Source: Planctomycetota bacterium (GTDB lineage: Bacteria > Planctomycetota > MHYJ01 > JACPRB01). From it: a DNA stretch of 34,550 nt. Location of the stretch: positions 1-34,550 of the forward strand of contig JACPRB010000278.1 of the NCBI GenBank assembly GCA_016190155.1, in the 5' to 3' direction. The position numbers and the translations under genes are program-made. Below, piece after piece: positions 9,648-25,553 of the stretch. The number at the start of each line of letters is the position of its first letter. Within the stretch, counting starts at the first letter, position 1. The notes under the pieces are model-generated. The model was given only the letters and a program-made list of their open reading frames with translations. It ran no database searches and was not told the DNA's origin.

Positions 9648-11126
9648 ATGAAAACCAAGACCTCCGCAATCGACACCAAACCGGCGGCCGAGGTGGACGT
9701 CCTCGACAAGGCCCACGAGGTCGTGGAATTCGCGCGCAAACAGAACATCGACCTCATCGACCTCAAGTTCGTCGACCTCCTGGGAACCTGGCAGCATTTC
9801 ACGATCACCAAGGACGAGCTCACCGAGGACCTCTTCATCAAAGGCGCGCCGTTCGACGGCTCCTCCATCCGCGGCTTCCAGACGATCGACGAGAGCGACA
9901 TGCTCGTCGCGCTCGATCCGACGACGGCCGTCCTCGATCCGGCCACGGAGCACCCCACGCTCTCCCTCATCGGCAACATCGTCGACCCGGTCAGCGGCAA
10001 ACCGTACACGCGCGATCCTCGATACGTCGCCCAGAAGGCCGAAGCGTATCTCAAGAAGACCGGCATCGCCGACACGAGCTATTGGGGCCCCGAGATCGAG
10101 TTCTTCGTCTTCGACAGCGTCCGCTTCGACCAGGGACAGAACTACGGCCTCTACACGGTCGACAGCGACGACGGTATCTGGAACAGCGGGCGCGAGAACA
10201 ACGGCAAGCCCAACCTCGGCTTCCGCCCGCGCAACAAGGAAGGCTACTTCCCCTGCGCCCCGACCGATCACCTGCAGGAGCTGCGCAGCGAGTTCGTGAA
10301 GAAGCTCATGCAGATCGGCATCCAAATCGAGATCCATCACGCCGAGGTCGCCACCGCCGGCCAGTGCGAGATCGACATGAAGTACCGCACGCTGACGAAG
10401 ATGGCCGACCAGTGCCTGTGGTACAAGTACGTCGTGCGCAACGTCGCCAAGGCGCGCGGCAAGACCGCGACGTTCATACCCAAGCCCCTCTACGGCGACA
10501 ACGGCAGCGGCATGCATGTGCACAGCTCGCTGTGGAAGAAGAGCGAGCCTCTCTTCTTCGACAAGGCCGGCTACGCGGGCATGAGCGATCTCATGAAGTC
10601 GTACATCGGCGGCCTCCTCAAGCACGCGCCGGCCATCCTCGCCTTCGCCGCGCCGACGACGAACAGCTACCGCCGGCTCGTGCCAGGCTACGAGGCGCCG
10701 GTCAATCTCGCGTACTCCCGGCGCAACCGCTCCGCGGCGTGCCGCATCCCGATGTACTCCAACAGCCCCGTCGCCAAGCGCGTCGAGTTCCGCCCGCCCG
10801 ATCCGCTGTCCAACCCCTACCTCGTCTTCTCGGCGATGCTGATGGCCGGCCTCGACGGCATCCAGAACAAGATCGATCCGGGCGCGCCCCTGGACAAAGA
10901 CATCTACTCGCTCTCGCCCGACGAGACCGCGACGGTCCCGCAAGTGCCGGGGTCGCTGGCGGAATCGATCGCGGCGCTCGAGCGCGATCACGCGTTCCTG
11001 CTCAAGGGCGACGTCTTCACCCCGGACGTGATCGAGAAGTGGATCGAGCTCAAGCGCACGCGCGAGATCGATCCCGTGCGGCTGCGCCCGCACCCCTACG
11101 AGTTCTTCCTCTATTACGACCATTAA
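9648..11126 (+). CDS. glnA: Glutamine synthetase, type I
   Basis: A 492-residue class I glutamine synthetase that forms glutamine from glutamate, ammonia and ATP, as a dodecamer in the cytoplasm. The beta-grasp N-domain covers about 25-110 ([17 protein letters not shown]). Catalytic motifs include [42 protein letters not shown] and RVEFRPPDP. Tyr420 in DIYSLSPDE matches the adenylylation site, so control by an adenylyltransferase is possible. The N-terminus is about 20 residues longer than in E. coli. The leader contains a strong terminator (9571-9625). Nothing in the coding region is unusual. Confidence 0.97.
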
Positions 11127-11144
11127 GGTACAAGAGCGCGCGGG

Positions 11145-11180
11145 AGAGGGGCCCGGGGGACCGCCTCCGGGCCCTCTTCC
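11145..11180 (+). terminator. Terminator after glnA
   Basis: AGAGGGGCCCGG (11145-11156) pairs with CCGGGCCCTCT (11167-11177) with one bulged G, followed by TTCCTTTCC. The T-tract is weak, so read-through into the glnA remnant is possible. Confidence 0.55.
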
Positions 11181-11198
11181 TTTCCCGAAGGAGGCTCC

Positions 11199-11643
11199 AT
11201 GGCCAAAGACGTGAAGTGGGTCCTCTCCCAACTCAAGGACGTGCGCTTCGTCCAGGTGCGCTTCACCGACATCCTCGGCTCGATCAAGGGATTCACGATC
11301 CCGGCCGACGCGCTTCCGGTCGCCTTCGAGGAGGGCAAGGGCTTCGACGGCTCGTCGATCGAGGGATTCACGCGCATCGACGAGAGCGACATGTGCGCGT
11401 GGCCGGACCCTTCCACGTTCGTCCTGGCGGGCCCCGGCCTGGCGCGCATGTTCGCCGACATCAAGAATCCCGACGGGACACCCTTCGAAGGCGATCGGCG
11501 CGGCCGAGCGCAGCACGCTCCTGCGGCGGGCGCTCGGCGAGCACGTGTTCGAGAACCTGCTCGCTTGCAAACGCATCGAATGGGACGACTTCCGCACGAA
11601 GGTGACGGGGTACGAGATCGAACGGTACTTGCCCATCTTGTGA
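11199..11643 (+). pseudogene. Remnant of a second glutamine synthetase with central deletion
   Basis: A good ribosome site (GAAGGAGG) and ATG begin about 98 codons of a different type I glutamine synthetase, through FDGSSIEGFTRIDESDM to NPDGTPFEGD. At about 11490 the sequence jumps, one frame over, to the last 50 codons of the enzyme, ending in EHVFENLLACKRIEWDDF and IERYLPIL with TGA at 11641-11643. The middle 300 or so residues, holding the active site, are absent. The in-frame product instead continues in the wrong frame to 11663. The junction falls in GGCGATC, which fits both flanking reading frames, as expected for a deletion between short direct repeats. The product cannot make glutamine. 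Confidence 0.88.
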
Positions 11644-11672
11644 GGCGCCGCGGGCTGCCGTAGAATGAAGGC

Positions 11673-12260
11673 ATGAAGGTGCTGTACCTGGACGCGCCGG
11701 AGGAGATCATCCGCGAGCGGCGACGAAAGGGCTTGGACCGTTACGACGAATTGTGGGAGGGGGTTTACCACATGGTGTCCCCGCCCAGCGAACGACATCA
11801 GTACATCGTCGGAGAGCTTTTCGGACTTCTTGGCGTTTATGCGCAGAGCCACAAGCTCGGCACTCTTCGCCTCGGTTTGGGAGTGCGCGCCGGGGAAGAA
11901 AACTACCGCATTCCCGAATGGATCTTCCTGCGCACCGGGCGCGAGACTCTCCTGAAACCGGACAGCGGGACAGTGGACGAAGGTCCGGATGCCGTGCTCG
12001 AAGTGCGTTCGCCGGGCGACGAGACCGACGAAAAAATCCCCTTCTACGAAAAGAGGGCCGTACGCGAGCTCATCATCGTCGATCGAGACACGCGTGCCGT
12101 TGCGGTTTTCTGCCACACCGCCGGTCATTTCCGCCCTGTCTCGCCGAACGCCGCCGGCTGGATCTATTCCGAAGCGCTGCGGGCGTTCTTTCGGACGGAC
12201 GTCGCCGGGCCAAGGCTCCTGCTCCTCCTCGAATTCGATCGGAGCGAGCATTCCGTCTAA
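11673..12260 (+). CDS. Uma2 (DUF820) family endonuclease-like protein
   Basis: A 195-residue protein of the Uma2/DUF820 family, which has a PD-(D/E)XK nuclease fold. The hallmark VLEVRSPGDETDEKIPFYEK is at about 110-130, with the metal and catalytic residues E, D and K. The upstream acidic position, usually PD, is PE here (RIPEW). Family members have no settled biological role. TAGAAT ends 6 bases before the ATG and no Shine-Dalgarno sequence is present, so its message may be leaderless. It starts 29 bases after the glnA remnant. Confidence 0.85.
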   Translation: MKVLYLDAPEEIIRERRRKGLDRYDELWEGVYHMVSPPSERHQYIVGELFGLLGVYAQSHKLGTLRLGLGVRAGEENYRIPEWIFLRTGRETLLKPDSGTVDEGPDAVLEVRSPGDETDEKIPFYEKRAVRELIIVDRDTRAVAVFCHTAGHFRPVSPNAAGWIYSEALRAFFRTDVAGPRLLLLLEFDRSEHSV

Positions 12261-12324
12261 GGGTAATCCCGATTCCCCCGCCGAACCGGCTCCCCAGCGG
12301 GATAATACTCGCAGGAGGTCCCGC

Positions 12325-15252
12325 ATGGATGGATCCGACGAATCGCTGATGAGCGTCTTTCAACGCCAGGGTGATCAGGAGGCGCTCGCAGAGCTCATTC
12401 GGCGCCATTCCGCCTGGGTCTACAAACTCGCCCTCTCCATCCTTCACGATCCCGCCGCCGCCGAAGACGCCACCCAGCAGACCTTCGTTCACCTCATCGA
12501 ATCACGAAGTTCCTATCGCCCCGATGCGTGTTTCAAGCCTTGGGTGGGCCGCATCGCCGTCAACGCCTGCCTCAAGCTCCATCGCTCTCATCAACGCCGC
12601 CGATCGCGCGAACGCGACGCTGCGCCCAGGACCGACCTACAACACGCCTCTGCTGAGACCGAAGCCCTCCAGTCCTTGCTTCGTGATTTGGAGCCCGAGC
12701 TCAGGCTTCCCTTGCTCTTGTGCTATCAAGAGGGCTTCTCCCAGGCCGAGGCCGCCGCCGTCCTTGGCCTCGCTCCTCGAACGCTCTCCGACAGGATTCG
12801 ACGCGGCCTGGATCTGCTCAAGGAGCGCATCCCGCTGGCAGGAATGGCGATCGTCCTGGCCGATATCCCGCACGCCCTCTCCAAAGCGCCGACCCCGCCC
12901 GTTCCGCAAAGCCTGGATCTGCGACTTCGCGCCGCGTTCTCCACCCTGACTCTTCGCGCCGTGCCCAGGATCATCCTGTGGGCCGCCGCGGTCGCCGTTC
13001 TGGGCGCTTCCATCCTCGTCGGCTCGCTGCTGGTGCGGCCACGACGTGCGCGTTCTCCGGAAGACCCGACCGCCTCAGCTTCTTTTGCGCAAGGGCACTC
13101 CGACAAGGGTAGGGCCGGTGTCGCCGCCGAGCCGACCCCTCCAGAGGCGAGAAGTGTAGTCTCGCCGGCAGACGCCTCATCGCAAGCGGAACTGCGAGGA
13201 AAGGTGATCCGCTGGCCCGACGATCGACCGATCGCGGGTGCGAGCGTCACGCTGAAGAGCCCGACCGACGAAACTCGCACGGTTCAAACAGACGCTGCCG
13301 GGGCGTTTCACTTTGCGGGGCTTGGAGACGCAGAGTACGAGTTGACGGCGATATACCAGCTGCTGCGGCACTATCGAGAGAAGATCCTATTATCAGGATC
13401 ACATTCTGAGGAAAGACGCATCGCCCTGTATGCCGGCACGGGCTCCGCGATTCTCACCGTGCTCGATGAAATCAGCCAGCCGGTCGAGGGCGTTTCGCTG
13501 CGCATTTGGGGGCACACACATAGGACTCAGATCCTGTCTCTTCTGACGAATCACCAGGGGCAAGTCCAATTGACGGCTCTGCCTGCGGGAGAGTACGTGG
13601 TGCAAACACGCGACGGCGGCTGTTTTTCTCAAAAGTTGTTTCCGGTCAACGCAGACGAAGAGAACCACGTTCAGATCACCCTGCGAGGAACGGCCTGCAT
13701 CGAAGGGCATATCCGGACGGAGCAGGGCGACCCCATTCCTGGTCTCTATGTGAATTTCTTCTCCCCTGCCCTTAAGGATGGAGCGGAATACGACGTTTCG
13801 GATATCGCAGGCCATTACTCGTTGCCGAACATCCCTGCCGGGCTCTATCGCCTCGTCATCCGGGAAACAGGCCATGAGACCAGCGTAGCGTTGGCACGGG
13901 GGCAGAGATTGTGCGTGGACTTCGCCGTCCCGGCTCTGCCGGCGACGCTTGCCGTAACCGTCCGAGACAAATCGACAGGGCAACCGATTGCCGGCGCGAA
14001 GGTCTCCCTTTCGATCTTGGACAAGGAGTTCCCGACGGACGATCAAGGCCGCGTCCATCTCTCTTTTCCCCAACCCGTGGAAATCCGCATTGTGGCTCGG
14101 GCCACCGGATACCGATTTGCCGACCGCGATCTGCGTCTCGACGTCGGATCGAATGAGCAGGTCCTCGAACTCGCTCCCTTCTCGCGACCCGAAAAACCGA
14201 TCGAACCAAGAGTCCCGTTAAGGGGCCAGATCGTCTATCGCGATGATCGCGCCCCAGTGCGAGATGCCGCGATCTACTGCAGGCGTGCGGGAGACCGCCC
14301 GTCTTCTTCATCCTCGTTCCCGGACGTGATCACGGCACCCGATGGAAAGTTCCGCTGCGAGGCACCGCCCGGCGAGCTGGAAATCGAAGTTGCTTTGCTC
14401 GGCACGGATGTTCGCCATTTCTTCCCTGTGCCTGTGGAAGATGCCCAGCAAGACATCACCCTGGAGTTGGAACGCGACACTTGCACTCTTCAAGGGCACA
14501 TCTATGGATACGACGGTACGGTGGGGGTGTACCTCAAGCCGAAAGACGGCACGGCCACCGACCAGCTGACTTTGAAGGGTCCCGAGAAGCGTTACCGCTT
14601 TGTGGCGCGTGAGGGCCTCTACTGCCTGCAGGTCTATGCCGGGCTCTTGCGATGGTACGAAAGACACGTGCAGTTGCGCGCCGGTGAAACCAAGACGGCG
14701 GACATTTCCATTCCTGTCGGTTCGGCGATCTTGCACGGTTCCATCCGCACCTTTGATGGATCCCCGCTGCCTTTTGGCGCCGTACGTGTGACCTTGACGA
14801 CCACGGACGGCGAAGCCATTGCCACGTTCTCGCGTTACTCCGATCGCTCGGGGCGTTTCGAATTCCACGATCTTCCCGCGCGAACCTACCGTCTCGAATG
14901 GGGACCCGACAACGGGTCCTGGTCGCAGCACGTCGACCTGACGCTGGAGGAAGGAACCGCCACACGACAGGACTTGACGCTGCCGTTCTCCGCCACATTG
15001 GATCTTTCCGTAACCGACGAGAGCGGCACACAGAATCTCCTCCCGTCGAGCACCGTCGAACTCCGGAGTCCACAAACTCACCCCTCGCCCCTCCCGGTGG
15101 ACAAGAGGAACCGTCCCTGGCTGCTCCCCCCGGGATCTTATCATCTGCGCGTCACCGCCGCCGGCTTCCATCCCTACGAGGCGGCGCTGACGATCCCCAC
15201 ACACGGCGCCCTGCGCGAAAACGTCCGCCTGCGCAAGGCGCCGGCGAAATGA
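12325..15252 (+). CDS. Membrane-tethered ECF sigma factor with carboxypeptidase-regulatory-like repeats
   Basis: A 975-residue fusion. Residues 8-175 are an ECF sigma factor: region 2 contains LHDPAAAEDATQQTFVHLIE and region 4 contains GFSQAEAAAVLGLAPRTLSD. A membrane helix covers 215-237 and is followed by RPRRAR. The remaining 700 residues consist of about eight beta-sandwich units of the carboxypeptidase regulatory-like type, each with a pattern like G.pl.gA.V.l followed by D..G.f.f..lp.g.Y.l. Sigma and repeats lie on opposite sides of the membrane if the helix inserts. The first sigma residues follow a GCAGGAGG ribosome site, and GATAAT at 12301 may be its -10. No anti-sigma gene is adjacent, so I infer that the exported part itself senses the signal. 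Confidence 0.87.
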   Translation: MDGSDESLMSVFQRQGDQEALAELIRRHSAWVYKLALSILHDPAAAEDATQQTFVHLIESRSSYRPDACFKPWVGRIAVNACLKLHRSHQRRRSRERDAAPRTDLQHASAETEALQSLLRDLEPELRLPLLLCYQEGFSQAEAAAVLGLAPRTLSDRIRRGLDLLKERIPLAGMAIVLADIPHALSKAPTPPVPQSLDLRLRAAFSTLTLRAVPRIILWAAAVAVLGASILVGSLLVRPRRARSPEDPTASASFAQGHSDKGRAGVAAEPTPPEARSVVSPADASSQAELRGKVIRWPDDRPIAGASVTLKSPTDETRTVQTDAAGAFHFAGLGDAEYELTAIYQLLRHYREKILLSGSHSEERRIALYAGTGSAILTVLDEISQPVEGVSLRIWGHTHRTQILSLLTNHQGQVQLTALPAGEYVVQTRDGGCFSQKLFPVNADEENHVQITLRGTACIEGHIRTEQGDPIPGLYVNFFSPALKDGAEYDVSDIAGHYSLPNIPAGLYRLVIRETGHETSVALARGQRLCVDFAVPALPATLAVTVRDKSTGQPIAGAKVSLSILDKEFPTDDQGRVHLSFPQPVEIRIVARATGYRFADRDLRLDVGSNEQVLELAPFSRPEKPIEPRVPLRGQIVYRDDRAPVRDAAIYCRRAGDRPSSSSSFPDVITAPDGKFRCEAPPGELEIEVALLGTDVRHFFPVPVEDAQQDITLELERDTCTLQGHIYGYDGTVGVYLKPKDGTATDQLTLKGPEKRYRFVAREGLYCLQVYAGLLRWYERHVQLRAGETKTADISIPVGSAILHGSIRTFDGSPLPFGAVRVTLTTTDGEAIATFSRYSDRSGRFEFHDLPARTYRLEWGPDNGSWSQHVDLTLEEGTATRQDLTLPFSATLDLSVTDESGTQNLLPSSTVELRSPQTHPSPLPVDKRNRPWLLPPGSYHLRVTAAGFHPYEAALTIPTHGALRENVRLRKAPAK

Positions 15253-17874: not shown

Positions 17875-18522
17875 ATGGTCACCAGCGTCCGCACCTACGG
17901 GGACGCCCTGCGCTTCATTCAGGAAGCCGGGATGGCCTTCGTCTTCCCCGACAAACGAGTGTCCCTGCCCTCTCTTTGGGGAGCCGTCGGAGGCGACCCT
18001 CGAAGCGCGATGGGGGAAGACGACTGGGAGTGGACGAAGCAGGTCGCGCGCGCCTGGGACCTCAAGGACGAACTCGGCGCCCGCCGCGGTGCCTACTTCG
18101 GACGTTTCTTGCGCGGCAAGGGCACGTTGATCGCGCTCGATCTCCTGGCGCCTCTGGCGACGCTGGTGCGATCGGATGACAACCTCTTGCCGGCGGCGCG
18201 CGAAGCCTACGAGCGGTTGGGACGCGTCGGCGAACTCTCCAGCTTGCGCTTGCGCGAGTCGCTGCGGCTGCACGGAGCCGGCGGCAACGCCCAGTTCGAC
18301 AAGGTTTTGCTCCAGCTCTACCGACGATTGCTCATCGCCACCGTCGGCACGGACGACAGCGAAACGCACTGGCCCGCCGCCGTCGTGGACCGACTGGAGC
18401 ACGCCTTCCCGAAGGTCGTCTCACAAGCGGCTCGATTCACGCGCGAGAAGGCGATGGCCCGCGTGCGCGCAAGGCTGCCTGACGCGCCGCCTCGGCTGCT
18501 CACCTCACTCGCGCAGCGGTAG
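17875..18522 (+). CDS. AlkZ-related protein
   Basis: A 215-residue protein resembling the short relatives of the AlkZ/YcaQ DNA glycosylase family, which are built on winged-helix units. Matching features are an opening TYGDALRFIQEAGMAFVFP, then VSLPSLWGAV, and an AYFGRFLRGKGTLIALDLL block in the middle. The QxQ catalytic motif of true AlkZ glycosylases is not evident, so glycosylase activity is doubtful. The C-terminal part is helical and basic. Its 3' end overlaps the convergent folD gene by 23 bases. Confidence 0.6.
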   Translation: MVTSVRTYGDALRFIQEAGMAFVFPDKRVSLPSLWGAVGGDPRSAMGEDDWEWTKQVARAWDLKDELGARRGAYFGRFLRGKGTLIALDLLAPLATLVRSDDNLLPAAREAYERLGRVGELSSLRLRESLRLHGAGGNAQFDKVLLQLYRRLLIATVGTDDSETHWPAAVVDRLEHAFPKVVSQAARFTREKAMARVRARLPDAPPRLLTSLAQR

Positions 18523-19345
18523 CGCACTCCACGATGTTGCGCAGCCACACCGCGATCGCGACGGGGCCGACGCCGCCGGGCACCGGCGTGATCGCGGAGG
18601 CGATCTCTCGGGCTTCGTCGAAGGCGACGTCGCCGACCAGCGGTCCCTCGGGGAGCTTGTTGATTCCGATGTCGACGACGATCGCCCCGCGTTTCACCAT
18701 GGATCCGCGGATCGCGTTGGGGCGGCCCGCGGCGACCACAAGGACGTCCGCGCGCGCCGTGTGGGACGCGAGATCCGCCGTCGCCGTGTGACACACCGTG
18801 ACGGTCGGCGCGTCCGCTCCCATCGCCAGGAGCATCAGCGCCGCCGGCTTTCCCACGAGAGCCGATCGGCCCACGACGACGGCATCCAGGCCGCGCAGGC
18901 TCGGCCGGTGCGCGCGAAGGATCTCGATCGCCGCTCGAGCGGCCGCCGGTTGCGGGCCGGGGAGTCCCATGACGAGACGACCGAGGCTCTCCGGCTGCGA
19001 CGCCTCGATGTCCTTCGCCGCCGGCACGATCGAGAGGACGCGCCCCTCGTCCACGCCCTCGGGCAGCGGCTGGTGGACGGTGATGCCGGTGATCGTCGGG
19101 TCGTTCGCCAGCCGCGCGGCGAGGCCGTAGACCTCTTCGGGCGGCGCATCGCCGATGGGGTGAACATCATATGGTATGCCCCCCTTCTCGCACACCGCGC
19201 GCTGCCGCTTCATGTAGACGCGCACGGCCGCGTTCTTCTCGTTGTGGATCGCCGCCACGCGCGGACGCCTGCCGGCCAGCGCCGCGGTCACTTCGGAGCG
19301 GATCTTCTCCGCCACCGGCTCGCCGTGAAGAAGGATCGCCGCCAT
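18500..19345 (-). CDS. folD: FolD-like methylenetetrahydrofolate dehydrogenase/cyclohydrolase with altered active site
   Basis: A 281-residue FolD homologue of normal length. Family landmarks are VVVGRSALVGKP (NADP-binding domain), DIGIN and ITPVPGGVGP. Against E. coli FolD the catalytic Tyr50 is kept (Tyr44), but Lys54 is Gln48, Gln98 of the VQLPLP motif is His91, and Asp121 of KDVDG is Glu114. The PCTP segment is also missing. The cyclohydrolase step needs the lysine, so this protein may act only as a dehydrogenase, use another pterin, or have a new role. TATACT lies 9 bases before the ATG with no Shine-Dalgarno sequence. Confidence 0.85.
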   Translation of the reverse strand: MAAILLHGEPVAEKIRSEVTAALAGRRPRVAAIHNEKNAAVRVYMKRQRAVCEKGGIPYDVHPIGDAPPEEVYGLAARLANDPTITGITVHQPLPEGVDEGRVLSIVPAAKDIEASQPESLGRLVMGLPGPQPAAARAAIEILRAHRPSLRGLDAVVVGRSALVGKPAALMLLAMGADAPTVTVCHTATADLASHTARADVLVVAAGRPNAIRGSMVKRGAIVVDIGINKLPEGPLVGDVAFDEAREIASAITPVPGGVGPVAIAVWLRNIVECATAARVR

Positions 19346-19354
19346 GGGCCCCGA

Positions 19355-19360
19355 GTATAG
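19355..19360 (-). promoter_or_regulatory. -10 element of folD (leaderless type)
   Basis: TATACT on the minus strand ends 9 bases before the folD ATG. It sits in the 21-base gap after the preceding minus-strand gene, so folD can be transcribed on its own. Confidence 0.6.
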
Positions 19361-19366
19361 TGGGGG

Positions 19367-19912
19367 TTATGGTTGGGTGACGAGCCTTTCTCTCACCTGC
19401 TCGCGCATGGTCTCGAAGAGCTCTTCGTCGCTCTTGAACGCGCTGCGGGTGACCGCGCGGTCCTCATCCGTCAAGGGTGTCAGCAGTTCATCGATGAACT
19501 GCGCGATGCCCTCTCTTCGCGCGTGGGCCTCGGCCCGCCGATCGGCCCAGCGGCGGAACATCTTATACGCGACCCAGCCCAAGCCGGCGCCGATCGCGCC
19601 GAAAACGGCCGCGTACGCGAAGCCTTCCAAGATCGAAAACGCGGTCGTGATCGCGATCACGCTGCTGAGCGAGAAGAAGCCGGCGGCGACCGCCCCGAGC
19701 GCCGCCGACGCGCCACGGCTCAAATCGGCGGCTTGCGTGCTCCCGCGATACGCGCGCAGGCGGAAAAGTTCCCGAACCTGCGGCTTCTCCTGGGCCATCT
19801 GGATGGCCCGGTCCGTCAGATTCGTCGCCATCTGCGCCGGGCTTTCCTGCGCGAACGCGACGGAGGACAGCATCGTGCAACACGACAGCGAGAGGCACAA
19901 CATCTTCGACAT
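19367..19912 (-). CDS. Exported or membrane protein of unknown function
   Basis: A 181-residue protein with a signal peptide (MSKMLCLSLSCCTMLSSVAFAQ). Two hydrophobic helices follow at about 70-92 and 96-118 (GFAYAAVFGAIGAGLGWVAYK), then a basic RRWADRRAEAHARR stretch and an acidic C-terminal domain. The glycine-zipper-like second helix may promote oligomerisation. I recognise no family. A GGAGGGATTCCC ribosome site fixes the ATG at 19912. It is transcribed away from the Hsp20 cluster, from the same 289-base intergenic region. Confidence 0.7.
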   Translation of the reverse strand: MSKMLCLSLSCCTMLSSVAFAQESPAQMATNLTDRAIQMAQEKPQVRELFRLRAYRGSTQAADLSRGASAALGAVAAGFFSLSSVIAITTAFSILEGFAYAAVFGAIGAGLGWVAYKMFRRWADRRAEAHARREGIAQFIDELLTPLTDEDRAVTRSAFKSDEELFETMREQVRERLVTQP

Positions 19913-20034
19913 GGGAATCCCTCCGGCAAACCCGAACGAGACCGCGCAAACACGCACGGCTGTTCCTTGTTCGACGTCTCCCCCCTTCCCTTCACGCCTT
20001 TTCAAAAGAATCGCGCGCGATGTTCAGTTTTCTA

Positions 20035-20063
20035 TTGACATAGTTCACAATATATATTACACA
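20035..20063 (+). promoter_or_regulatory. Probable promoter of the Hsp20 cluster
   Basis: A consensus TTGACA at 20035-20040 opens a distinctly AT-rich stretch (CACAATATATATTACACA). With 17-base spacing the -10 would be TACACA at 20058-20063; TATATT at 20053 is a better hexamer but only 12 bases away. No CIRCE inverted repeat or sigma-32 consensus was found. The resulting leader would be about 130 bases long. Confidence 0.5.
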
Positions 20064-20068
20064 CATTG

Positions 20069-20088
20069 TTGCGCGCTTCGGTGCGCGA
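20069..20088 (+). promoter_or_regulatory. C(UUCG)G hairpin in the hsp20 leader
   Basis: Eight base pairs, including two G-U pairs, close a TTCG tetraloop flanked by C and G, which is the extra-stable tetraloop form. There is no T-run, so it is unlikely to be a terminator; it may protect the 5' end or help fold the leader. Confidence 0.55.
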
Positions 20089-20169
20089 TGGGAGATGAGG
20101 AAGATGGTGGAGAGGGGACGTTCACGCGCGGTCGCCGCGTCGGTTCGATGCGCATGCCGGCGATCCGCG

Positions 20170-20199
20170 CTCTCTTTGAGGATCGTTTTGTGAGGAGAG
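20170..20199 (+). promoter_or_regulatory. Candidate RNA thermometer hiding the hsp20 ribosome-binding site
   Basis: CUCUCUUUG (20170-20178) can pair along its full length with UGAGGAGAG (20191-20199), using three G-U pairs and a 12-base loop. The paired 3' arm contains the whole Shine-Dalgarno sequence GAGGAG, 2 bases before the ATG at 20202. A weak helix rich in U-G pairs over the ribosome site is the design of known thermometers upstream of small heat-shock genes. This is a reading of the sequence; no folding energy was computed. Confidence 0.55.
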
Positions 20200-20201
20200 A
20201 C

Positions 20202-20732
20202 ATGGAAATCCTGGATCAGATGCTTTCCGATGTCCGGCACTTGTACGAGCAGGCGACCGGCACGCCGTACTCGCGCGAGAAGCTGCGGGGCCGGCCTCTG
20301 GCCGTTCCCAAGGAGGCCGACGCCGAGGCCTTCCTCTATCAGCAGATCGCGCACCTGCGCAACCTGCTGGCGGCGCGCACGTCGCCGTTCTGGTCGACCA
20401 CGCCGTTATGGATGCCCGTCCTGGACGCGTACGAAGCGGGCGCCGCGCTCGTGCTGCGCATCGAGCTGCCGGGCCTGACGAGGGAAGACGTCACCCTTTC
20501 CATCGGCGAGAGCCTCGTGGTGCTCAAGGGGGAGAGGACGTTCCGCATGTCCGATCGCGACGCCACCGTCCTCGCCCGCGAGCGCTTTTACGGCCCGTTC
20601 GAGAGGTGGATTCCGTTGCCTTACCGGGTGAAACCGGAGGTCGAGGCGAAGTTCGAAAACGGCGTCCTGGAGATCCGCCTGCAGAAGGCGGAAGCCGTCT
20701 TCGATCCCACCCGGAAGGTCGACATCAAGTGA
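20202..20732 (+). CDS. Hsp20/alpha-crystallin family small heat-shock protein
   Basis: A 176-residue holdase chaperone that binds unfolding proteins without ATP. The alpha-crystallin domain covers about 70-163: PVLDAYEAGAALVLRIELPG, then LVVLKGER, and the conserved end KFENGVLEIRLQK. The C-terminal VDI fits the IxI/V motif used for oligomer assembly. The N-terminal arm is unusually long and begins with the helix ILDQMLSDVRHLYEQA, which recurs in two neighbouring small proteins. I chose the ATG at 20202 because GAGGAG precedes it closely. The frame stays open upstream, so a longer form cannot be excluded. It is first in the cluster at 20202-23634. Confidence 0.9.
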   Translation: MEILDQMLSDVRHLYEQATGTPYSREKLRGRPLAVPKEADAEAFLYQQIAHLRNLLAARTSPFWSTTPLWMPVLDAYEAGAALVLRIELPGLTREDVTLSIGESLVVLKGERTFRMSDRDATVLARERFYGPFERWIPLPYRVKPEVEAKFENGVLEIRLQKAEAVFDPTRKVDIK

Positions 20733-20746
20733 AAGGAACGCATGCC

Positions 20747-21019
20747 ATGACCACCGTGAAGAAAGGTGAGCCAGGCCGGGACGAGAAGGTAGAGGAAATC
20801 CTGGCGATCCTCGGAGAACTCTACCAGCGCTTCGGTGTCAACCAAGCCGGAGCTGTGGCGGCGACGGCCGATTACAAATTCGTCGGATATCGTCCGTATC
20901 AGGCCGCCGATCCACACGGCTGGCCTCGCGAGCCCGTGAATGCCATGGCGCCCTGGCTGGGCGGCATGGCGGGGACGCCGACGGAGAATCCGTCCCACGC
21001 CCCCTATTACAGGCTCTGA
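20747..21019 (+). CDS. Small protein sharing the Hsp20 N-terminal helix
   Basis: A 90-residue protein starting 14 bases after the hsp20 stop, with an AAAGGAAC ribosome site. Residues 13-30 (EKVEEILAILGELYQRFG) form an amphipathic helix that matches the start of Hsp20 and of the 69-residue protein at 22153. The remainder has no predicted secondary structure and is rich in Gly, Pro, Tyr and Trp (YKFVGYRPYQAADPHGWP, PSHAPYYRL). No family recognised. The shape, a short helix plus a flexible tail, suggests an adaptor or a client of an assembly rather than an enzyme. Confidence 0.75.
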   Translation: MTTVKKGEPGRDEKVEEILAILGELYQRFGVNQAGAVAATADYKFVGYRPYQAADPHGWPREPVNAMAPWLGGMAGTPTENPSHAPYYRL

Positions 21020-21117
21020 TCGCATCGATGATTTCGTGCTGATCTGCCGGTGTCGGCGGGGATTCAGAGTTGTCATTGTCGCTGGTGTTGGTTTTTGGAT
21101 TTTGGAGGGAGTTGGAC

Positions 21118-21618
21118 ATGTACCAGTATGTGACCGACATTTTCGGGCGCAATCTGTTCCCGCTGAACCTGAGCTCGTCGTATGCTCCGACACTGCCGTT
21201 GATCGGCAGCTTTTTCCCGCAGGGCGCGCAGGCTTTGTTCCCTGCGGCGCACGCCGCCGTGCCCCAGCCGCCCACGGCTTGGCCGTTCATGCCTCAACCC
21301 ATGACCGTGGATCCGCGCCTCCTGGGGCCGCACGTCGTGTCGATCGATCCCCGCTGGACGACCGCGTCCTGGACGCTCCAGAACGTCGTGATCGATCCCC
21401 GCACGGGCCTGCCCGCCGCGACGCAGATCGACCCTCGCTTCCTGCAGCAGCCGGGCTTGCTGCCCGCGCTGCAGAATCAGCCCTGCTTCCAGCAGCAGCT
21501 CCTGCAGAACGCCTATCTCCGGCCCGCCTACGTGCCGGCGACGATCACGCAGGGCGTGCTGCCCGGGTCGATCAACGCGACTCCGGTCGTCGTTCCCCAG
21601 CAGGCGGTAACGAGCTAG
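21118..21618 (+). CDS. Proline-rich protein with four [VI]DPR motifs
   Basis: A 166-residue protein with a strong ribosome site (TTTTGGAGGGAG). The composition is rich in Pro, Gln, Ala and Leu, with few charged residues. VDPR at 64-67 and IDPR at 76-79, 92-95 and 104-107 are spaced 12, 16 and 12 residues apart, which suggests a repeated short structural unit. The N-terminus (MYQYVTDIFGRNLFPLNL) may be a short helix but lacks the shared Hsp20-type helix. There is no signal peptide. No family recognised. It lies 98 bases after the previous gene, with no obvious terminator between. Confidence 0.7.
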   Translation: MYQYVTDIFGRNLFPLNLSSSYAPTLPLIGSFFPQGAQALFPAAHAAVPQPPTAWPFMPQPMTVDPRLLGPHVVSIDPRWTTASWTLQNVVIDPRTGLPAATQIDPRFLQQPGLLPALQNQPCFQQQLLQNAYLRPAYVPATITQGVLPGSINATPVVVPQQAVTS

Positions 21619-21704
21619 ACCGCGGCCGAGGGCTTCCGTGATGCGCCCCCCGGCACCGGTAGGATCGGCACATTTGTTTAATAACATTCGCACTAGGAAG
21701 AATC

Positions 21705-21767
21705 ATGACCCCTTATCCGATGCGAGACGCCTCGGCGCGTTCCCCCTGGCTTGATGAAAAACTGTAA
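21705..21767 (+). CDS. Possible 20-residue peptide
   Basis: AGGAAG lies 4 bases before ATG, and the frame encodes MTPYPMRDASARSPWLDEKL before TAA. It sits between two genes of the Hsp20 cluster, behind an AT-rich stretch (TTTGTTTAATAACATT) that could be a promoter. It may be a leader peptide or chance. Confidence 0.25.
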   Translation: MTPYPMRDASARSPWLDEKL

Positions 21768-21839
21768 TCGGTTCCTTGTACGCTGAGCGGCCGGTGCTCG
21801 CGGGGACAACGGAGGATCTCTCTTATAAAGGAGGAAGCC

Positions 21840-22156
21840 ACGCAAAAGGTCCCCTATGACATCCCTGAGGTTTCTGGTCGTTCCTTGTTCCCGCCGTACC
21901 CCACCTGGGTCCCTCAGCGATCGGCCTCGGCCCCCCAAACGGAGCCGCCCCCCCACGTGACCGTCGCGTGGACGCCACCGGCACTTCCGGAGGCGTCCTG
22001 GCCCGGCGACGTCGAAGGGACGGCGCCTCCCGCTGCGGCAGGCCGGCCCGGTCGACTGCGCCGACGCAGGCGGAGATGTGTCCCGAGATTCCGAGTCGCG
22101 CTCCGTGCTTCGCGACACCGGCCCCCGCGTACGAAGTCTCTGGAGGTTCCTTATGA
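21840..22156 (+). CDS. Proline-rich small protein with apparent ACG start and frameshift
   Basis: A perfect ribosome site AAAGGAGG (21827-21834) stands 5 bases before ACG at 21840, with no ATG, GTG or TTG at that distance. The frame from there reads plausibly (KVPYDIPEVSGRSLFPPYP and on to about 22030), then turns into an unnatural arginine run. Another frame takes over at about 22050 (PTQAEMCPEIPSRAPCFATP) and ends in TGA at 22154-22156, forming an ATGA overlap with the next gene. So the gene seems to have lost its ATG and to carry one indel, or both are sequence errors. The product would be about 105 residues, proline-rich and without membrane segments. No family recognised. Confidence 0.45.
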
Positions 22157-22362
22157 ATGACGTCGCCTTTCTCCGTCAGAAGAAGATCGACGAGATGTTG
22201 TCGCTCCTGGGCGAACTGTACGACCAGGCCTCCGCGTGGGGCGTTCGCCCCGTCTTCGTGCCCAATCTCAGCTTGCCGATGCCGGTCGTGTCGGCACGCC
22301 CCAAGAGTTCCCGTCGCGATCCGACGCCGCCGCGAAAAGTGGTGCAAGCGCCGGCTCGATGA
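22153..22362 (+). CDS. 69-residue protein sharing the Hsp20 N-terminal helix
   Basis: GGAGG 6 bases before the ATG sets the start. Residues 10-25 (KIDEMLSLLGELYDQA) match Hsp20 residues 3-17 at 9 of 15 positions and also match the 90-residue protein at 20747. The second half is basic and proline-rich (RPKSSRRDPTPPRK) and probably unstructured. The stop overlaps the start of the ClpB-like gene as ATGA, so the two are translationally coupled. No family recognised. Confidence 0.75.
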   Translation: MNDVAFLRQKKIDEMLSLLGELYDQASAWGVRPVFVPNLSLPMPVVSARPKSSRRDPTPPRKVVQAPAR

Positions 22363-23634
22363 CGGGTTCGCCTCGCGTTGAGCTCAAGGTCGCGCCTTGC
22401 CACGACCTCGTGCTGAACGCGATGTGTCCGGTGGGTCTCCAGACCCCCCGGTTGTTCTTTGACGAAGGCCGACAGGTCGGCATCGCCGGGATCCTGCAGG
22501 CGTTCACCGGTGCGGCCGAACGGCGAGGTGGATATCCTCGCGGTTTTCGGCGTCCCTGTTCCCTGTGGACGAACCGTCGTAACCATCGGTACCCCGAGTG
22601 AACCCGCGGTGCCGACCTTGATCGGCTCACTCCTCACGGCGCCCGAGGCAAGACACATGTACGATTATTTCGTCGACGCGCTGACGCAGGAAGCGGTCAG
22701 CCAACCCGAGGCGGTCCGCGCCCTCGCCCGCACCGCCGTTCGAGCCGTTCACGGAAGCTGGCGGGGCAATCGGGCGCTGGCCGTCCTGCTCATGGCCGGC
22801 CCTCCCGGAACCGGCAAAGGCCTGCTCACGCAAGCCTTCGCGCGGCTGCTTCTGGGTAGCGATCGCCGCCTCATCAAGATCAATCCGTCCTTCCACCGCC
22901 AGGTGTGGTCGTGCATGCAAACCTTGGGCGCGTTGTGCGCCGCGCACGACGCTCAGCTGCCTCCCCTGCCGCATCCGCTGCGCGTGATCCTGGTCGATTC
23001 CCTGGAAAGGGCCTCCCGCTCCATCCTGGAGCTCTTCGTCCACGTCTTCGCCAACGGCGAACTGACGATCCAGCCCGGAACGTCCATCGACTTCACCCGC
23101 ACGATCTTCCTCCTGGAAACGGGGCTGGCCGAGCGGGAGGTGGACGCGGTCGTCACGCGCGCGGTGGGTTTCAAGACGCACGATCTCGAAGCGCACGACC
23201 GGTCCGACGAAAGCATCCGCGAACAAATCGAAGGCCGCATTCAAGAGCACTTCTCGCCGCGCTTCCTGAGCCTCCTCGACGATTTCATCTTGTTCCGGCG
23301 CATTCGCGAAGACGATCTCGCCCTTGTCTTGGAGAAATTCCTCGGCCGACTCCGCCTGCGCCTGGCGACGATGGATCTGCACCTGCACGTCGAAGACGCC
23401 GCGCGCGCCTTCCTCCTCAGCGAAGGCGCCCGCTCTTTGCGCTACGGCGCGAGGGGCCTGCGCCAAGCGATCGAGCGACATCTCGAAACGCCGCTCATGG
23501 CGGCCCTGTCCTTCACTCGGCTCGGCCCCGGCTCCGTCGTCTTCGCGCGACGCAGCCTGCAGGGGATCACCCTGTTCCTGCCGTCCATCGGTTCTCCCGT
23601 TCTTCCGTTCGTCCGTGCACCGGTTCGCGGGTAG
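22359..23634 (+). CDS. Degenerate ClpB-D2-like AAA+ protein, with apparent +1 frameshift
   Basis: The ATG at 22359 is coupled to the previous stop (ATGA). The first 55 codons (to ILQAFTGAAE) lead, after a one-base shift near 22525, into the frame that continues to 23634 (GEVDILAVFGVPVPCGRTVV and on). If the frames are not joined, an 80-residue protein ends at 22601 and a second starts at ATG 22657. Codons from 22657 match the second ATPase domain and D2-small domain of ClpB, ending in YGARGLRQAIERHLETPL. Walker A is GPPGTGKG (last Ser/Thr replaced by Gly), Walker B is ILVDS (Glu to Ser), the Arg finger in FLNRID is FLSLLD, and the pore loop GYVGY is absent. It may bind nucleotide but probably cannot hydrolyse it or thread substrates. 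The last 16 residues come from a GTTC repeat. Confidence 0.72.
23590..23630. repeat. GTTC-rich repeat at the 3' end of the ClpB-like gene
   Basis: Successive CCGTTC-type units (GGTTCTCCCGTTCTTCCGTT and onward) resemble the array at 6108-6150. Here the array is read as protein (PVLPFVRAPVRG) before the stop at 23632-23634, so it appears to have replaced the original end of the gene. Confidence 0.6.
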
Positions 23635-23688
23635 CCTGCCGCCACAGGAACGGAATTTCCCCCCGTCGTTGATTTCTCTGACATAATT

Positions 23689-24168
23689 ATGGACGTGCCG
23701 GGCGCCTCTCCACAAAAACGCCGCGTCCTTGTCATCGACGACGATGAGAACATCCGCCGCATCATCCGCCATTTCCTGGAACAAGCGGGGTTCGAGGTCT
23801 ATACGGCACCCGACGGAGACGCGGGCCTCAAGTCCGCCGTCGCCGCCCCTCCGGACGCCATCCTCCTCGACGTCATGATGCCCGTGAAGGACGGCTTCAA
23901 CGCCTGCGCCGAACTCAAGCGCCTGGAACGTACCCGCAACGTGCCGGTCATCTTCCTCACCTGCAAGAGCGGCGACGAACCGTGGACGATGGCCCGCCAT
24001 CGCGGCGCTGCCGCCTACCTGGAGAAACCCTTCCGCCACGACGCCCTCGTGGCCCTCGTGCACGAAGTGATCGACCAACACGAAGAGGAACGCCGAACCA
24101 CGCCCCCCGCGTCCAAGTCCGCCAAGGGCCCGCGCCCCGCCCGGAAGAAGACGCCTCAGAAACGCTGA
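23689..24168 (+). CDS. Response regulator, receiver domain with basic tail
   Basis: A 159-residue single-domain response regulator. The receiver covers about 11-130: VLVIDDDENIRR supplies the acidic pair, AILLDVMMP the phosphoacceptor Asp, and YLEKPF the conserved Lys. The last 30 residues are a disordered, Lys/Arg/Pro-rich tail (SAKGPRPARKKTPQKR) that might bind nucleic acid or a partner. No output domain and no kinase gene are nearby. It starts 54 bases after the ClpB-like gene; whether it belongs to that cluster is unclear. No Shine-Dalgarno sequence is visible. Confidence 0.88.
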   Translation: MDVPGASPQKRRVLVIDDDENIRRIIRHFLEQAGFEVYTAPDGDAGLKSAVAAPPDAILLDVMMPVKDGFNACAELKRLERTRNVPVIFLTCKSGDEPWTMARHRGAAAYLEKPFRHDALVALVHEVIDQHEEERRTTPPASKSAKGPRPARKKTPQKR

Positions 24169-24194
24169 GCCCGTCGGAATCTTCCCTTTTCGAC

Positions 24195-24270
24195 TTCTCT
24201 GAGTCCTCGGTGTCCTCTGGTGTTGGGGTTCGGGTCTTCTCCGCGTCCTCGGTCCCCCTCTGGGTCCTCG
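24195..24270. repeat. Degenerate CTC(T/C)GNGTCCTC repeat
   Basis: Units such as CTCTGAGTCCTCGGTGTCCT and CTCCGCGTCCTCGG recur several times in the gap between convergent genes. Similar units occur at 29792-29812 and 34468-34550, all in intergenic positions. Confidence 0.5.
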
Positions 24271-24293
24271 CGCCGTCCCTTGTTCAGGCGCCC

Positions 24294-25553
24294 CTACTTC
24301 CGCGCTTCCTTCATCACCTTCTCGATCTCCTCGATCTCGCGCGGCGCGCCCGACGACCAGCGCTCGAAGCCCTCGGCCGTCACCAAGTAGATATCCTCGA
24401 TGCGGATCCCCCACCCGGCGTCCTTGTCGTAGTAGCCGGGCTCGATCGTAATCACGCACCCCGGTTCCAGCGGCGCGAACGGCAGGCCGGAGTCGTGAAC
24501 CGCTAGTCCCACGAAATGCCCCAGTCCGTGGCGCACGCTCCAATCCCGTGAATGCGCGTACGACCACTTCGTCAGCCCTCGCGCCTTGAAAACCCCCTGC
24601 GCGGCCGCTTCCAGCTCACGGAAACTGACCCCCGGTTTGAGGATCCGTTCCGCCGCCTTCTGCGCCTCCAGCGCGCATTCATACGCCTCGCGTTGCTCCT
24701 TCCCGAACACGCCGTCGGTCGGAATCGTGCGCGTGATGTCGCTAGCATATCCTCGATACGACGCGCCGACATCCATCACTACCAGCGAGTCCGCCGGAAG
24801 CACCGCGGAGTTCTTGCTGTAATGGAGGATCGTGCCGTTCTTCCCCGCCCCGACGATCGACGGGAACGCCACGCCGTCGCAGCCCTGCTGCCGGAACGTG
24901 TCCTCGATCGCCTTCTGCAACTCGCCCTCGCTCATGCCGCTGCGACACGCGACCATCGCCGCCCGATGAGCCGCGTTCGTCCCCTCCGCGGCCTTCTTCA
25001 TCATCAGGATCTCCGCGGGGCTCTTGACCGTGCGCATGCGCGCCAGCTGATCGGCGATGGGATTGCGCCCTCGCTCGTCGGTCGCGCGCAGCTCCACATC
25101 CGGAGCGACCGCCTCAATCGCCTTCCGCGTCGTCGCGCGTGCACGCGCGTGAACGACCCTCGCGGCCGGGAACACGTCCTTGGCGAAGGTCTCGAACTCC
25201 TCCCGCGGCAACACGTGTTCCAGGCCTGTTTCCTCGCGGATCTTTTCCGGATCCTCGACGGTGAAAACGAAGGCCTCCTTCTCGCCCGGCACCAACACGA
25301 GGAGATCCCCCGCCGCGTGATACCCCGCCAGATAGCCGTAGTCGTAGCGCGGCGTGTTGGCATCGATGCCCTCCATGCCCGCGAACAACTTCTCCGCCTC
25401 CATGACGACGATCCCGTCGGACAGCGCCTCCATCAGCCGCGCCCGCCGCTGGACGTACTCCGACAACGGAATCGTCGGCCGCGCCGCATCCTGAACGAAG
25501 CCCAGCAGCGAAACGCCGAACGCCCCGATCAGCAGTCGTCTCTGGATGTTCAT
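24294..25553 (-). CDS. Exported M24-family Xaa-Pro aminopeptidase
   Basis: A 419-residue metallopeptidase with a signal peptide (MNIQRRLLIGAFGVSLLGFV). The N-terminal creatinase-like domain covers about 30-165 and the pita-bread catalytic domain about 180-410. All five metal ligands are visible: Asp in VVMDVGA, Asp in ASDITRT, His in HGLGHFVGL, Glu in TIEPG and Glu in IRIEDIYLV. It should remove an N-terminal residue before proline, outside the cytoplasm. The gene follows the aspartyl-protease/PDZ gene after only 7 bases, so the two exported peptidases form an operon. Confidence 0.92.
   Translation of the reverse strand: MNIQRRLLIGAFGVSLLGFVQDAARPTIPLSEYVQRRARLMEALSDGIVVMEAEKLFAGMEGIDANTPRYDYGYLAGYHAAGDLLVLVPGEKEAFVFTVEDPEKIREETGLEHVLPREEFETFAKDVFPAARVVHARARATTRKAIEAVAPDVELRATDERGRNPIADQLARMRTVKSPAEILMMKKAAEGTNAAHRAAMVACRSGMSEGELQKAIEDTFRQQGCDGVAFPSIVGAGKNGTILHYSKNSAVLPADSLVVMDVGASYRGYASDITRTIPTDGVFGKEQREAYECALEAQKAAERILKPGVSFRELEAAAQGVFKARGLTKWSYAHSRDWSVRHGLGHFVGLAVHDSGLPFAPLEPGCVITIEPGYYDKDAGWGIRIEDIYLVTAEGFERWSSGAPREIEEIEKVMKEARK

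Follow-up and report, generated by a model that had tools for sequence, protein, structure and literature searches.

A candidate portable cassette joins a small heat shock protein, two orphan protein families and a degenerate ClpB-type AAA domain in Planctomycetota

Hsp20 and ClpB are usually seen as partners working in series, the first a holdase, the second a disaggregase driven by ATP. Genes for both types of protein are brought together in the transmissible locus of stress tolerance (tLST), a horizontally placed block which carries an Hsp20, a gene of the Hsp100/ClpB family and proteins whose function is unknown (PMC8290217, PMC8407380). Here we analysed a window of 34,550 nucleotides from a Planctomycetota bacterium (GenBank assembly GCA_016190155.1, contig JACPRB010000278.1), in which five plus-strand genes encode an Hsp20, three small proteins (P2, P3 and P4) and a single AAA domain. 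Like tLST, this cassette joins an Hsp20 with a ClpB-family gene and orphan proteins in one block. However, whereas tLST encodes the full-length disaggregases ClpG and ClpK, in which Walker, pore and sensor motifs are present, the AAA protein of the cassette is a single degenerate domain resembling the second AAA domain (D2) of ClpB. The tLST genes for FtsH, YfdX, HdeD, KefB and DegP are also not present in the block, where domain annotation of the neighbouring genes found none of these nor trx. To our knowledge, tLST contains nothing that corresponds to P2 or P3. The cassette would thus keep the Hsp20-ClpB pairing with its motor disabled and with two orphan families added, one of which carries the N-terminal helix of the chaperone.

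Two other described systems resemble parts of this arrangement. IbpA and IbpB are two co-expressed proteins with parts of the small heat shock protein (sHsp) type and are thought to co-assemble (PMC10708888); P2 and P4 differ from them in having no alpha-crystallin domain, only a helix like that of the sHsp N-terminal arm (N-arm). LAP1 and LULL1 are degenerate AAA-like activators of Torsin, eukaryotic and membrane-anchored, which supply an arginine finger (PMC4358337). In these proteins, as may be the case in the cassette, an AAA fold that lacks nucleotide-binding motifs serves a Clp-like AAA+ protein as structural partner or activator. This is a likeness of working for which we claim no homology, and the cassette AAA has lost the finger too. 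No paper that treats pseudo-ATPase AAA+ proteins and small heat shock proteins together in bacteria was found in a literature search whose coverage was partial and which is weak evidence.

Our preferred reading, to which we assign a probability of roughly 0.4, is that four of the genes (Hsp20, P2, P3 and AAA) may form one portable cassette for a dedicated, ATP-independent sHsp assembly. We favour it because the four-gene order is kept while the chromosomal sites differ, a helix is shared between products, the Hsp20 N-arm is conserved, P3 has a low charge and the AAA domain appears dead.

The cassette comprises Hsp20 (20202..20732, 176 amino acids), P2 (20747..21019, 90 amino acids), P3 (21118..21618, 166 amino acids), the P2-like paralogue P4 (22153..22362, 69 amino acids) and the pseudo-AAA protein (22657..23634, 325 amino acids). 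All five have positive coding scores, from codon usage trained on neighbouring genes, and a GC content at third codon positions of 0.74-0.89. The window is contig C224 of its genome (G000; 4.49 Mb in 360 contigs, 88% complete). We checked whether relatives carry the Hsp20 alone, or small frames that are not conserved as proteins, and found the Hsp20-P2-P3-AAA set, with order and strand kept, in a second genus of the same family (G003, 91% complete; contig C134), at identities of 74, 48, 33 and 50%, respectively. A scan of contig collections returned JACQVR010000003.1, a Planctomycetota metagenome assembly, as the sole relative, and this is identical to G003:C134. The start methionine of Hsp20 is the same in both genera. 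G003 has no P4 or P5 frame between P3 and AAA, and P4 is confined to the window's genome, so that four genes of the system are conserved and P4 is specific to one lineage.

The first-pass annotation had counted six or seven consecutive genes with coupled starts, and two of those frames lack coding or conservation support. The frame at 21823..22157 (plus strand), upstream of P4, has negative coding scores in either reading and no ATG, GTG or TTG start in frame with AAAGGAGG nearby. The doubtful P5 frame (22359..22601, plus strand, 80 amino acids) also scores negatively, and its best relative among 41 genomes searched reaches only E=7e-4 and has a stop inside. Neither frame was found in the G003 cassette. 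The two ATGA overlaps are indeed present, but each involves one of these unsupported frames. The placing of the small proteins outside known families held, as P2, P3 and P4 were unmatched in Pfam, NCBIfam, PHROGs and PADLOC, and by these profile searches P2 and P3 are orphan families.

Codon comparison between the window and G003 gave a dN (nonsynonymous divergence) of 0.21 and a dS (synonymous divergence) of 1.4 for Hsp20 and 0.44 and 1.5 for AAA, while P2 differs by 0.44, 0.30 and 0.68 at the three codon positions. Since dN is below dS and third positions show an excess, the Hsp20, AAA and P2 frames appear to be kept as proteins. P3 is more diverged, its window copy being 33% and 31% identical to the two G003 copies, which compared with each other give a dN of 0.32 and a dS of 0.67. 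Judged from these comparisons, the cassette genes are under purifying selection. This bears on the possibility that there is no functional unit at all and that only common descent has kept Hsp20, a P2-P3 pair and a decaying AAA gene side by side. Such a reading would fit the degeneracy of the AAA domain and the occurrence of P2-P3 without the other two genes, but we consider it improbable, given that the AAA frame is intact and constrained in both genera, that the four-gene order has been kept despite a different chromosomal site, and that the shared helix ties Hsp20 to P2 and P4.

The site itself is informative. In the window the block (19346..24293) lies between the minus-strand genes for FolD (18500-19345) and an M24 peptidase (24294-25553), which are 4.9 kb apart, and holds a minus-strand open reading frame of membrane type (19367-20005) and a response regulator (23689-24168, plus strand) besides the cassette. 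In G003, FolD and M24 are adjacent on contig C94 (aligned ends 16 bases apart), and the same glycosyltransferase and epimerase genes come next, whereas the cassette is found elsewhere, on C134, between a ribonucleotide reductase/helix-turn-helix region and another gene. The sites of the cassette in the two genera are thus unrelated, which is most simply read as insertion in the window's lineage; loss of the block in G003 is possible, since in another genome (G001) FolD and M24 are likewise separated by several kb.

These different sites would also suit an anti-phage or selfish mobile cassette, a set that moves as a unit for defence or for its own maintenance, as would weak PADLOC matches of AAA to PDC-M37B (E=8e-5 and 9e-4). 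Those matches, however, are limited to the 40-53 residues surrounding Walker B, which any Clp-type AAA would match; the other cassette proteins have no PADLOC match, and no system set passed the PADLOC threshold, only partial AAA and receiver-domain matches being returned. The block holds no nuclease, toxin, recombinase or transposase, and its ends show no clear terminal repeats, with nothing convincing among the candidates. Viral contigs gave no match to P2, P3 or AAA, and plasmids none to P3 or the Hsp20 N-arm. We therefore regard a role in defence or self-maintenance as quite improbable. AAA matches in plasmids were ordinary ClpB/Clp genes of less than 60% identity.

The cassette is very rare. 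When 393 Planctomycetota, members of the same class included, were sampled with profiles of P3 and of the Hsp20 N-arm, each profile found it in two genomes, and the P3 profile matched only three P3 copies in all. The whole Hsp20 was searched in 24 genomes of the class. A third cassette suspected at G007:C35 was rejected as an ordinary Hsp20-ClpB pair. At that locus (L037, contig 10534-13875), in a genome of the same class, an Hsp20 is directly followed by a canonical ClpB with an apparent frameshift, an arrangement from which the cassette may have arisen.

The feature that most directly links the small proteins to the chaperone is an amphipathic helix. It forms the N-terminus of Hsp20 (MEILDQMLSDVRHLYEQATGTPYS, 20202..20273), where alignment, profile and hydrophobic moment agree, and recurs in P2 (residues 12-31, 20780..20851; profile E=1.5e-11 in its own genome) and in P4 (22177..22248; E=6.3e-12), all on the plus strand. 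The Hsp20 N-terminus, P2, its second G003 copy P2b and P4 align without gaps. Significance was judged against a background of 172,501 windows, the cassette's own frames among them. P4 and the Hsp20 N-terminus share 8 of 20 residues (z=6.1), a score equalled by one background window, and P4 against P2 (z=7.5) is likewise reached by one; these single windows are probably the cassette's own frames. The score of Hsp20 against a P2/P4 profile was reached by 5 of the 172,501. A six-row profile recovered exactly the six known copies at E<2e-11 in the two genomes, the next match standing at E=0.18; because these copies themselves built the profile, its information lies in the gap between E values. The earlier notion of a shared helix in the small proteins is thus borne out above chance. 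The hydrophobic moment is high for the Hsp20 and P4 helices and moderate for that of P2, which continues into a Pro/Ala/aromatic tail that contains the motif GYRPY. An ordinary Hsp20 encoded in the same genome has a similar helix at its N-terminus (GKVTNQFRQELERVFEQYSG, score 28), which suggests, though it does not prove, that P2 and P4 mimic an sHsp arm.

A short amphipathic helix beside a Pro/Ala linker, common to otherwise unrelated proteins, could instead be a tag of the encapsulation type, by which Hsp20 and the small proteins would enter a bacterial microcompartment or a shell like it, and the window's genome does contain shell genes (PF00936; G000:C16:11296-11523 and G000:C105:7005-7232). 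Yet G003 carries the full cassette without a microcompartment shell match, and a profile search found the helix in no protein of either genome beyond Hsp20, P2, P2b and P4, making such a tag very improbable. Gas vesicle clusters encode an Hsp20-like protein, GvpH; their structural protein GvpA had no match in G000 or G003, in a search run without a positive control.

The Hsp20 is, by sequence, an ordinary family member. It matches PF00011 (E=1.9e-13, 50.8 bits against a cut-off of 20.8), which places it in the alpha-crystallin family, and consists of an N-arm helix (residues 1-19), a second helix (41-60), the alpha-crystallin domain and a C-terminal V-D-I. This last is a motif of the IxI/V type read from the sequence, VDI in the window (KVDIK) and VEI in G003 (RVEIN). 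A structure model has helices at 2-19 and 41-60, with modest confidence (62). The N-terminal arms of small heat shock proteins are normally their variable part. Here the pattern is reversed, the N-arm being 85% identical between the genera and the alpha-crystallin part 69%, and this suggests that the N-arm may have a fixed partner.

The AAA protein matches the second AAA domains of ClpB and ClpC across both the large and the small domain (Pfam AAA_2 and ClpB_D2-small; PDB relatives 4fct, 1qvr and 3j3r). Against the ClpB model TIGR03346, however, it scores 117 bits for a cut-off of 1232 and covers only model positions 561-842 of 853. It is one domain, with no N-domain, first AAA domain or middle domain, in a protein of 325 residues where a full ClpB has about 850. 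We compared its motifs with those of 18 relatives from the phylum. Walker A, GPTGxGKT in the relatives (GPSGCGKT in one), is GPPGTGKG in the window and GPLGSGKR in G003; the DE of Walker B has become DS and NP, respectively; the TSN of sensor-1, ETG and ETD; and the NR of the arginine finger, SL in both. The GYVG pore loop, found in all relatives, is deleted from both copies, and sensor-2 is an intact GAR in the window and GTK in G003. The Walker A Ser/Thr, Walker B Glu, sensor-1 Asn, finger and pore loop are thus kept in 18 of 18 relatives and lost in both cassette copies, in keeping with the first-pass description of an inactive-looking ClpB domain. Because different residues were lost at the same positions while the frame stayed intact and constrained, we infer that the pseudo-AAA protein keeps a structural role. 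As the domain has lost its catalytic, finger and pore elements, it is unlikely to act with Hsp20 in disaggregation in the way that ClpB usually does.

This loss also weighs on the main rival explanation, an accessory heat- or chlorine-stress island similar to tLST, in which Hsp20 would hold unfolded proteins of the cell, the Clp-like protein would aid their release together with the cell's ClpB and DnaK, and P2 and P3 would be minor accessory factors. The tLST pattern is indeed a mobile block that holds an Hsp20 and an Hsp100-type gene (PMC8290217), the canonical pair at G007:C35 means that the cassette could descend from one, and the window's genome also holds canonical Clp/ClpB genes, in pieces, on contigs C23 and C351. 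But such an island needs a working disaggregase, the companion genes YfdX, HdeD, FtsH, KefB and DegP are missing from the block, and no conserved promoter or RNA thermometer was found: upstream of Hsp20 there was no Rfam match and no folding excess that would point to an RNA thermometer or riboswitch, alignment of the window with G003 revealed no shared upstream DNA element, and a promoter scan was empty. We hold this explanation to be doubtful, if not far-fetched.

Separately, G000:C351:10884-11807 (L099) encodes a free-standing ClpB-D2-like protein in a 434-residue open frame whose motifs are intact (GQTGVGKT, GYIG, DEIEK, TSN, NR and GAR) and whose N-terminal part is apparently unique. Frames of 430-446 residues related to it occur in G001, G002 and G004, and its TIGR03346 score is not ClpX-like.

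P3 differs from the other products in its composition. The window copy has a low charge (6.6% DEKR) and is rich in Pro, Ala, Gln and aromatic residues. Across the three copies, charged residues make up 3-7% of the sequence and Pro/Ala/Gly/Gln/Ser/Thr/Asn about 60%. A conserved N-terminal IFGR...P(L/F)IGSF(V/F)PQ block and a conserved C-terminal block enclose a variable middle. In the window this middle contains four DPR motifs, so the earlier label of a DPR-repeat protein describes that copy, but the motifs are not kept in its two relatives. From its composition, P3 is probably disordered or associates with itself.

In a dedicated sHsp assembly, Hsp20 would oligomerise and serve as a holdase or assembly chaperone for the aggregation-prone, almost uncharged, Pro/aromatic-rich P3, which would be a low-charge client or scaffold. 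P2, and P4 where present, would use their sHsp-type helix to co-assemble with the Hsp20 N-arm or to bind the partner of that arm, acting as adaptors or caps; a role as adaptors, or as building blocks of an assembly, is our best guess for the small proteins. The pseudo-AAA protein, with its ClpB/ClpC-D2 fold and small domain, might be a non-hydrolysing scaffold, and the product would be a protein particle or a stress granule-like store, not a disaggregase. A more specific form of this proposal, an undescribed ATP-independent assembly that moves as a cassette between genomes and in which an sHsp, the free-standing N-arm helices of P2 and P4 and a low-charge, phase-separating P3 are built on an inactive ClpB-type scaffold, is in our view unlikely. 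If true, the wider proposal would provide a compact, genetically bounded case for what an sHsp N-arm recognises, for how separate peptides build or cap sHsp assemblies, and for what a bacterial pseudo-AAA protein does.

Several observations count against the assembly proposal. P2 and the Hsp20 helix share only 4-5 of 20 residues, the strong link running through P4. The structure models are of single chains; that of Hsp20 is, as said, of modest confidence, and that of AAA (predicted local distance difference test score of 51) was too poor for a fold search. The cassette is represented by two instances in all. Finally, a lone P2-P3 pair at G003:C101 (locus L070:1468-2181) occurs without Hsp20 or AAA, and P2 and P3 therefore need not act only with these two. 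This pair sits between a methyltransferase gene and a gene for an outer-membrane-type protein.

As for the remaining features of the block, the response regulator, a stand-alone receiver domain with a basic tail, begins 54 bases past the AAA gene, and both it and the membrane-type open reading frame are absent near the G003 cassette. Upstream of Hsp20, a strong GCGCGC-TTCG-GTGCGC hairpin (20068-20089) directly follows an AT-rich stretch (TTGACAT...ATATATATTACAC); it is not shared with G003, and the leader as a whole has no folding excess. Beyond the block, an AlkZ-related protein (17875-18522, plus strand; PF24741, E=3.5e-22) slightly overlaps FolD on the opposite strand.

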